A stretch of DNA of 64,000 nt, from NCBI RefSeq assembly GCF_016887965.1, contig NZ_JAFDVD010000020.1, forward strand, positions 1 to 64,000, given 5' to 3'. The DNA comes from Phycicoccus sonneratiae. GTDB taxonomy: Bacteria > Actinomycetota > Actinomycetes > Actinomycetales > Dermatophilaceae. Shown in pieces: positions 15,864-19,031 of this stretch. A model generated the notes under the pieces. The model was given only the letters and a program-made list of their open reading frames with translations, did not search any database and had not been told where the DNA came from. How positions within the stretch are numbered: position 1 is the stretch's first letter; every line of letters starts with the position of its first letter. A program made the position numbers and the translations under genes.

Positions 15864-16904
15864 TCAGGCCGGCTGGTCGAGCCGGACCGGCATGAGGATC
15901 GAGAGCGCGTCCTGCCGTGCCGGGTCCCGGATGGCCAGGGGCGAGATGGGGTCGTCGATCGCGAGGGTCAGCTGGCCGCTGGATCCGAGCGCCTGGAGGA
16001 GGAAGTCGCGGTTCACGCCGACGACGAGCACCTCGGGGTCGTCGGACGGGCCGACGTGCACGCCGTCGGCGCCGAGGCCGAGGCGGCTGACGTCGAAGGT
16101 CACGCCGTCGCGCTCGCGGGTCTGGGTCTCGGTGCCGCCGGCGTCGAGGGCGGCGCGCAGGGCGGCGGCGTCGACGGGCACCGGCTGTTGGCCGACCTCG
16201 AGGAGGCTGCGGTAGGCCGGGAAGTCGACGTCGGACACCTCGGCCCGGACGGTGCCGCCCGCGCCGGTCAGGGTGATGGTGCCGCGGTCGATGACGACGT
16301 CGAGGGTGCCGGTGTGCCGGCCCTCGGTCAGCGCGTCGACGGCCTCGGTGGGGAGCAGCAGGTGCAGGCCCGGGTCGCCGTCCGTGGGGACGGTGGTCGT
16401 GCTGAGCCGGTACCGGTCGGTGGCGACGACGCGGAGCAGGCCGTCCTCGCTGTCGAGGTAGACCCCGTTCAGGCGGGGCTCGGCGGGGTCGTCGCTGACG
16501 GCGTGCCGGACCTCGTGCAGGGCGCGGACGAGGTCGGCGGCGGGCAGGGTGCATCGGTGCATGGGGGTCTCCGTGGTCTCGAGCAGGTGATGGACGGCGG
16601 AGATCTCCCTGCGGGCATCGGCCAGCCCGGCTTCCAGACGCCCGACGTGGGCGGCCAGGATGGACGGCGCCTCGTGTGGCGCGGCCAGCACGGCCCGGAT
16701 GTCGTCCAGCGGCAGCCCGACCCGTCGCAGGTGCGCCACCACCCGAGCCGGGCGGACCTGGCTCGGGAGGTAGTAGCGGTACCCGGACGACGGGTCGACC
16801 ACCACGGGCGGCAGCACGCCGGCGGTGTCGTAGAAGCGCAGGGCACTGACGGGCAGGCCGCTCAGTGCGGACAGCCGACCGATCCCCAGCAGCTCGTTCT
16901 CCAT
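15864..16904 (-). CDS. MerR-type regulator fused to two DNA sliding-clamp (DnaN) domains
   Basis: A 346-residue protein. Residues 5-75 are a MerR winged helix (GIGRLSALSGLPVSALRFYD, SGYRYY), followed by a short coiled coil to about 110. The rest matches domains 2 and 3 of the DNA polymerase III beta clamp: LNGVYLDSEDGLLRVVATDRYRL near 155-178, DFPAYRSLL near 245, and the C-terminal MPVRL that corresponds to the MPMRL tail of DnaN. Clamp domain 1 is absent, replaced by the DNA-binding head. The clamp part may serve as a ligand or peptide-binding sensor. The start at 16904 is supported by a MerR-type promoter. Related MerR/beta-family proteins may exist in databases; their function is not known to me. 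Confidence 0.85.
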   Translation of the reverse strand: MENELLGIGRLSALSGLPVSALRFYDTAGVLPPVVVDPSSGYRYYLPSQVRPARVVAHLRRVGLPLDDIRAVLAAPHEAPSILAAHVGRLEAGLADARREISAVHHLLETTETPMHRCTLPAADLVRALHEVRHAVSDDPAEPRLNGVYLDSEDGLLRVVATDRYRLSTTTVPTDGDPGLHLLLPTEAVDALTEGRHTGTLDVVIDRGTITLTGAGGTVRAEVSDVDFPAYRSLLEVGQQPVPVDAAALRAALDAGGTETQTRERDGVTFDVSRLGLGADGVHVGPSDDPEVLVVGVNRDFLLQALGSSGQLTLAIDDPISPLAIRDPARQDALSILMPVRLDQPA

Positions 16905-16911
16905 GTCCCGG

Positions 16912-16942
16912 ACCCTTCCGTCTCGACCTGCTCGAGGGTCAA
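16912..16942 (-). promoter_or_regulatory. MerR-type promoter with 19-bp spacer and palindrome
   Basis: On the minus strand, -35 TTGACC (16942-16937) and -10 AAGGGT (16917-16912) are separated by 19 bp. The palindrome GACC-N8-GGTC (16925-16940) lies across the -35 and spacer. A long 19-bp spacer with an internal dyad is the hallmark of MerR-controlled promoters. The -10 ends 7 bases before the ATG, predicting a leaderless, self-regulated transcript. Confidence 0.6.
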
Positions 16943-18466: not shown

Positions 18467-18697
18467 GTGAAACTCAGCATCAGCCTCCCCGACGAGGACG
18501 TCGTCGCTCTGGACCGCTACGCCCGAGCCGCCGGAATCACCAGCCGCTCCGCGGCCATCCAGCGTGCGATCCGACTCCTGAGCCAGCCGGAGCTCGACGA
18601 CGCCTATGCCGCCGCCTGGGACGAGTGGGAGGCCTCCGGCGACGCCGCCACATGGGAGGAGACCACGGCGGACGGGCTCACCGATGCTGCGCGGTGA
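18467..18697 (+). CDS. Ribbon-helix-helix antitoxin of a MazEF pair
   Basis: A 76-residue protein with an N-terminal ribbon-helix-helix DNA-binding domain (KLSISLPDEDVVALDRYA, SRSAAIQRAIRLL) and an acidic C-terminal tail (about 45-76, rich in Asp, Glu and Trp) suited to wrap and block a MazF toxin. Its stop lies 14 bases inside the toxin gene, so the two are translationally coupled. It should repress its own promoter as a complex with the toxin. Confidence 0.88.
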   Translation: MKLSISLPDEDVVALDRYARAAGITSRSAAIQRAIRLLSQPELDDAYAAAWDEWEASGDAATWEETTADGLTDAAR

Positions 18698-19031
18698 GAT
18701 CCGACTGGTCGACCTCGACCCGGCCCGCCACGGTGAGGCGAACAAGCGCCGGCCCGCCGTGGTGGTCAGCAACAACCGCGCCAACGCCACCGCCGCCCGT
18801 CTCGGTCGCGGCGTCGTCACGGTCGTGCCCGTGACCAGCAACCTGGCCACCGTCTACCCGTTCCAGGTCGCCCTGCCCGCCGAGGAGACGGGGCTGCGGG
18901 TGGACTCCAAGGCGCAGGCCGAGCAGGTCCGCTCCGTCTCCGTCGAGCGCCTCGGGCAACCCCTGGGGCTCGTCCCGATCCCGCTCATGGAGAAGCTGGA
19001 CGACGCGCTTCGACTGCACCTCCAGCTCTGA
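18684..19031 (+). CDS. mazF: MazF-family mRNA endoribonuclease toxin
   Basis: A 115-residue MazF/PemK-type toxin that cleaves RNA at a short sequence. Family motifs are RGEIRLVDLDPARHGEA at the start, KRRPAVVVSNN near 22-32, VVTVVPVTSN near 44-53, and the DSKAQAEQVRSVSVERLG strand near 75-92. Length matches the family. It overlaps the antitoxin by 14 bases. A strong hairpin 134 bases downstream likely ends the operon. The pair is probably a chromosomal stress or stability module in an accessory region. Confidence 0.88.
   Translation: MLRGEIRLVDLDPARHGEANKRRPAVVVSNNRANATAARLGRGVVTVVPVTSNLATVYPFQVALPAEETGLRVDSKAQAEQVRSVSVERLGQPLGLVPIPLMEKLDDALRLHLQL

Follow-up and report, generated by a model that had tools for sequence, protein, structure and literature searches.

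A gene on the minus strand of the window (the whole 64,000-nucleotide stretch of DNA that was analysed) encodes a protein in which a MerR DNA-binding head is joined to two domains of the DNA sliding clamp, DnaN. The promoter, the gene and the parts of its product are as follows.

16912..16942, minus strand: MerR-type promoter/operator, TTGACC-19 bp-AAGGGT, the spacer containing a dyad (pattern shared with other members of the family)
15864..16904, minus strand: coding sequence, 346 amino acids, MerR head plus sliding-clamp domains II and III (profile, model, structural alignment)
16683..16904, minus strand: MerR winged helix-turn-helix, residues 1-74 (Pfam MerR_1, 7.6e-13; model)
16581..16679, minus strand: long helix, residues 76-108, presumably the usual MerR dimer helix (DSSP of the model)
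16197..16562, minus strand: clamp domain II, residues 115-236, border approximate (Pfam DNA_pol3_beta_2, 7.9e-9; structural alignment)
15879..16196, minus strand: clamp domain III, residues 237-342, ring-dimer segment deleted (TIGR00663 to residue 342; structural alignment)

The initial annotation had described a MerR winged helix followed by DnaN-like domains 2 and 3, including the C-terminal MPVRL. This architecture was confirmed by Pfam, TIGR00663, a predicted model and structural alignment. The MerR_1 match exceeds the curated Pfam cut-off, and the helix at residues 76-108 of the predicted model would correspond to the long dimerization helix of MerR proteins. Domain II carries the motifs T162-D-R-Y-R-L167 and F228-P-A-Y-R232, and domain III terminates in M338-P-V-R-L342. 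The clamp II-III fold of the C-terminal part was indicated by profile and model and recovered by VIA-align structural alignment on the predicted model. Of the three domains of DnaN, solely II and III aligned, by profile and by structure; domain I is absent, and the MerR head stands in its place. A Pfam scan to an E value of 1 returned MerR and clamp families only, and the TipAS domain (PF07739) was not found. The best MerR matches in the PDB were BmrR with the single sequence and BrlR with the profile. One such gene is annotated in public records as 'MerR family transcriptional regulator'.

The family was examined in an alignment of 95 distinct proteins, the window member included, onto which E. 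coli DnaN positions were mapped. An ORF or coverage filter excluded L084, L106, L121, L124, L125, L127 and the partial L008 and L010, and the identical copies L117 and L118 were dropped. Fifteen columns, which we take from E. coli DnaN positions to form the peptide/drug pocket of the clamp, had a mean entropy of 0.56 bits, versus 1.86 bits for the other clamp columns (95 members; Mann-Whitney p 2e-7); some columns outside the pocket were likewise invariant. Among the 95 members, Asp173, Arg176, Met362 and Pro363 occurred in all, Thr172 in 94, Pro242 in 92, and Arg365 in 85. The pocket residues are thus conserved across homologues, not lost. The segment I272-N275, in which I272 and L273 presumably contribute to the ring interface, was gapped in 95/95 members. 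Glu304, to which we assign a similar role, was present in 18 of 20 DnaN sequences that were a by-product of a phylum search and not a balanced sample, and was mostly Val or Leu in the MerR-clamps. By this alignment, the ring-dimer interface of domain III is missing from the family, and the hydrophobic pocket between domains II and III is retained as a predicted peptide site. Positions 198, 205, 269 and 282 were basic in 18 to 20 of the 20 sampled DnaNs and mostly replaced in the MerR-clamps. Two further positions, near the pocket, set the family apart from 18 of these 20 DnaNs: position 152, with Leu in place of Arg, and position 174, with Arg in place of Ser, the latter being Arg also in the window genome's own DnaN. 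These differences and the incomplete conservation of Arg365 weigh against a drug-sensing role. A retained pocket combined with the loss of ring and basic features is what would be expected if the module binds a ligand and has ceased to form a ring on DNA. The proposal of the initial annotation that the clamp piece serves as the sensor is therefore well supported at the level of sequence, since its conservation lies in the peptide/drug pocket and the ring-forming parts are lost.

MerR proteins activate promoters with over-long spacers by distorting the DNA upon ligand binding; TipA is an example (PMC7762955). A promoter of this kind lies directly before the window gene, whose start codon is 7 nt past the -10 element; its transcript is probably leaderless. 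Across the family, the layout consists of a -35 TTGACC, a 19-bp spacer with a dyad, a -10 that is mostly CAGRRT, and a start codon 4-8 nt further on. This operator precedes 92/95 distinct members by the first pattern (94/97 when the two duplicates are counted) and 94/95 by a relaxed pattern. The dyad lies in a 19-bp spacer, within the over-long 19-20 bp range, in 94/95 members, the window member among them. The most distant members, subfamily B (L301-L303, L123-L127, L035 and L036), have their own operator version with an identical layout and different half-sites. Because the layout is kept while the half-sites are altered, the operator site and the MerR head appear to have evolved in concert.

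At least 80 loci were found when species genomes were scanned, in Streptomyces, Micromonospora, Actinoplanes, Pseudonocardia, Blastococcus, Nocardioides, Knoellia and others. Among 396 evenly sampled Actinobacteria genomes, with the best five candidates per genome scored, 11 had a match to both halves. The gene is also carried by linear megaplasmids of Streptomyces and Embleya; in phages, 13 records were matched, none over 80% of the query. In a tree of the clamp part, one branch separated 27 MerR-clamps from 21 DnaNs (support 94/89; 96% of bootstrap trees), which fits a single origin of the family. In one genome of the window's genus, the copy (L008) is split between two frames, and L304, from a Micromonospora relative, is a broken or split copy. 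Such copies suggest that the gene is accessory and can be lost.

No neighbour genes conserved across genera were seen with our own crude gene caller. The divergent ABM monooxygenase gene and the convergent MarR gene of the window were considered as conserved partners and rejected, as they are not conserved. At most Micromonospora loci the gene adjoins an apparent serS (judged by eye), an instance of synteny. Of the 88 loci for which a downstream neighbour was called, 29 have it on the opposite strand; the gene is thus often on its own. Elsewhere in the window, at 18467-19031 on the plus strand, a gene for a ribbon-helix-helix antitoxin-like protein precedes one for a PemK/MazF-like toxin (3e-7 and 6.5e-26).

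The operator was used to search for further putative targets. In the window genome, the sole exact site was the promoter of the gene itself, and five more sites had two mismatches; no operator was found upstream of its dnaN or before an exporter. The initial annotation had also supposed that the protein links transcription to replication state. This found no direct support, the own promoter being the window genome's only match to the promoter pattern at one mismatch or fewer. The exact pattern occurred in 392 Actinobacteria genomes at four sites, once each in four genomes and always before this gene; it overlooked 7 of the 11 gene-bearing genomes of the sample, which have variant operators. 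Twenty-nine genomes of Streptomyces and its kin gave 29 sites, all self. Thirty other genomes gave 35 sites in 27 genomes, comprising 27 self sites (four assigned by identity with known operator strings) and 8 extra ones, and three same-family genomes with divergent members gave zero operator matches. All 8 extra sites fell in Micromonosporaceae (7 of 8 genomes). By eye, those of Actinoplanes and Asanoa precede TPR-like genes (L260, L263, L276, L278), an exporter (L277) and a YunG-like gene (L264); the sites L258 and L261 fit no class. When the extra sites of these 59 genomes were checked, none at one mismatch lay before dnaN.

Twenty Micromonospora genomes chosen for carrying the gene were searched at up to two mismatches. 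They yielded 55 sites, 20 self (16 verified by blastp, four by operator-string identity) and 35 others, and the reversed-pattern control yielded 0. The 35 non-self sites were assigned to groups from blastp searches with ORFs chosen by script, some with doubtful starts, and dnaN was identified by tblastn. Five groups resulted: MFS exporter 1 (10), dnaN across oriC (9), a TPR-like gene (7), a YunG gene (PF24585; 6) and MFS exporter 2 (3). One member per group, and two for the TPR-like group, were run against Pfam. Both exporters exceeded the MFS_1 cut-off and resembled drug/proton antiporters (TIGR00900, 1.7e-45 and 1.2e-21, short of the cut-off of that model), whereas the TPR matches were below Pfam cut-offs. 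The operator-bearing YunG-family genes are L165, L189, L197, L203, L215 and L216, with PF24585 tested on L197. Apart from one weak match (L179, 7e-7), no other MerR gene was found within 1.5 kb of a non-self site.

The co-occurrence of gene and sites was assessed in 121 Micromonospora genomes, of which 115 had at least one site; the reversed control gave one match overall. Twenty of them were hand-picked for the gene search, namely all six siteless, eight single-site and six multi-site genomes. The canonical gene was present in 14/14 picked genomes with sites (E at most 1e-95), and its canonical form was lacking in 6/6 siteless genomes, three of which carried the subfamily B form alone and two partial or broken pieces, while one gave no full match. 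The dnaN site was present in 9/20 and missing in 11/20 of the gene-chosen genomes at two mismatches. At up to four mismatches it was present in 2/8 single-site genomes and in none of the other six. It occurred in 6/6 multi-site genomes, a figure biased by their having been picked for several sites, and in 0/6 genomes without the canonical gene.

In 17 Micromonospora genomes, some 631-702 nt separate the dnaN-side site from the downstream dnaN start, which was estimated by alignment; the site is located toward dnaA in the origin region. Considering this distance, compared with 4-8 nt at the self promoter, the oriC-side operator may not drive dnaN. From the same position it could be argued that the protein is an origin-binding replication regulator, its operator tuning initiation and not dnaN transcription. 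We consider this very unlikely, since the site keeps the -35, the 19-bp spacer and the -10 of a promoter pointing toward dnaN, the window genome has no such site upstream of dnaN, and the exporters would be left unexplained.

The dnaN sites also bear on clamp homeostasis as an explanation. In that case, the pocket would bind the clamp motif of the cell's own replication and repair proteins; when clamp is scarce, free partners would occupy the MerR-clamp and raise its own expression and, in Micromonospora, that of dnaN. The pocket is indeed the clamp's general protein-binding site (PMC5694481), and 9 of the 20 gene-bearing genomes have dnaN as a putative target. However, MFS exporters are the commonest extra target (13/35), the dnaN site at one mismatch is absent from the 59 genomes above, and a gene this patchy, carried also on plasmids, is unlike a housekeeping control. 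This explanation therefore appears improbable, if somewhat less so than an origin regulator.

The TPR-like and YunG targets do not suggest drug resistance, and count as evidence against a drug-related role, as do the distance and patchy occurrence of the dnaN site and the window genome's lack of dnaN and exporter sites. The two unexplained target groups speak for the alternative that the protein senses an unrelated ligand on a clamp scaffold, the pocket being conserved for folding only; clamp-ligand binding is, moreover, a prediction. Yet it is mainly the pocket columns that are conserved, much of the remainder having diverged, and the ring and basic features have been lost, which makes an unrelated ligand quite doubtful.

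The reading we favour, with moderate confidence, is that the protein is a one-component regulator of the MerR type that senses clamp-inhibiting cyclic peptides with a non-ring-forming copy of clamp domains II-III. The fusion, the conserved pocket, the loss of ring and basic features, and the MerR-type promoter just upstream are its established parts. The clamp pocket, the own operator, and the shared operator at dnaN and drug-pump genes in some relatives together make the sensing of clamp-blocking antibiotics probable. A regulator with a clamp pocket, and with an operator common to itself, dnaN and exporters, is most simply interpreted as a clamp-drug sensor. Of the ligands listed in the initial annotation (clamp-binding peptides, a clamp-targeting antibiotic or a replication protein), the antibiotic fits best, because the Micromonospora operator precedes dnaN and MFS exporters; endogenous clamp peptides may be a signal. 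The dimer would occupy the promoter with the 19-bp spacer until the pocket between domains II and III was filled by a griselimycin- or mycoplanecin-type cyclic peptide or a clamp inhibitor of similar kind. The dimer would then distort the DNA and switch the promoter on, and more regulator would be made. The surplus protein could act as a decoy clamp soaking up the drug, in the manner of TipAS and AlbA. The switch would extend, in Micromonospora, to dnaN, supplying more target, and to the MFS exporters, adding efflux. In self-only genomes, the regulator may act as a drug sponge; by its operator sites, the window genome shows the self loop alone. There is about an even chance, in our estimate, that widespread actinobacterial sensors copy the drug's own target in this way, as switch and decoy, with clamp overproduction and efflux in Micromonospora.

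Published work on the clamp drugs accords with parts of this scheme. Griselimycin binds between clamp domains II and III, and resistance to it depended on an amplified region with dnaN and the origin (PMC5694481). Met362 and Arg365 participate in drug binding, and producer clusters carry a further DnaN gene, taken as self-resistance (PMC10817943). These extra genes of the griselimycin and mycoplanecin clusters, GriR and MypR, are like the MerR-clamp in being clamp copies tied to clamp drugs; they differ in being described as self-resistance DnaN genes, and a term search of the main text did not return the word MerR (PMC10817943). One Micromonospora genome has two DnaN-like matches (G528:C1:708691-709443 and 5827781-5828533), one of which could be a second clamp as in griselimycin-type producers.

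A close parallel is the TipA class (TipAL/TipAS, Mta, SkgA, AlbA), with a MerR head, autoregulation and a drug-trapping C-terminal part, the last two predicted for the MerR-clamp. TipA proteins are autoregulated antibiotic-binding MerR systems, a drug-sponge role is described for TipAS, and the skgA probe TTGACCCTCACGCCACGTCAGACCTG has a similar promoter layout (PMC7762955); AlbA is reported to be an albicidin-binding resistance protein (PMC6078987). Their effector is the TipAS domain, whereas that of the MerR-clamp is clamp II-III, which copies the target of the presumed drug. BmrR-type sensors likewise join a MerR head to a larger drug-binding domain, as predicted here, but their effector is GyrI-like (PMC7762955). 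The MerR-clamp shares with DnaN the fold of domains II/III and the peptide pocket, and differs from it in having a MerR head instead of domain I and in lacking the ring segment and basic residues. The beta-lactam sensors BlaR1 and MecR1 also have a sensor domain related to a drug-binding protein, but they signal through a membrane protease, unlike a one-component MerR protein.

Among open-licence PMC papers, judged by titles and abstract openings, no description of a MerR-sliding-clamp fusion was found; in two papers that contain 'merr', the word belonged to author names. MerR drug sensors are already known, and what would be new is the kind of sensor domain. Validation of the clamp as a target for antibiotics (griselimycins, mycoplanecins) is recent. 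If our reading is correct, a self-inducing sensor built from the target would be a new bacterial route of drug detection, and clamp-targeting natural products would be common in soil and act on many soil actinobacteria. The protein would also offer a ready detector, or a simple whole-cell reporter, for finding clamp-binding compounds. In a genome of the same order (G046), L018:1399-2553 encodes a MerR head joined to a protein phosphatase of the PP2C type (MerR_1, 8.7e-13; PP2C_2, 2.9e-9), which by its profile matches is another unusual MerR effector domain.
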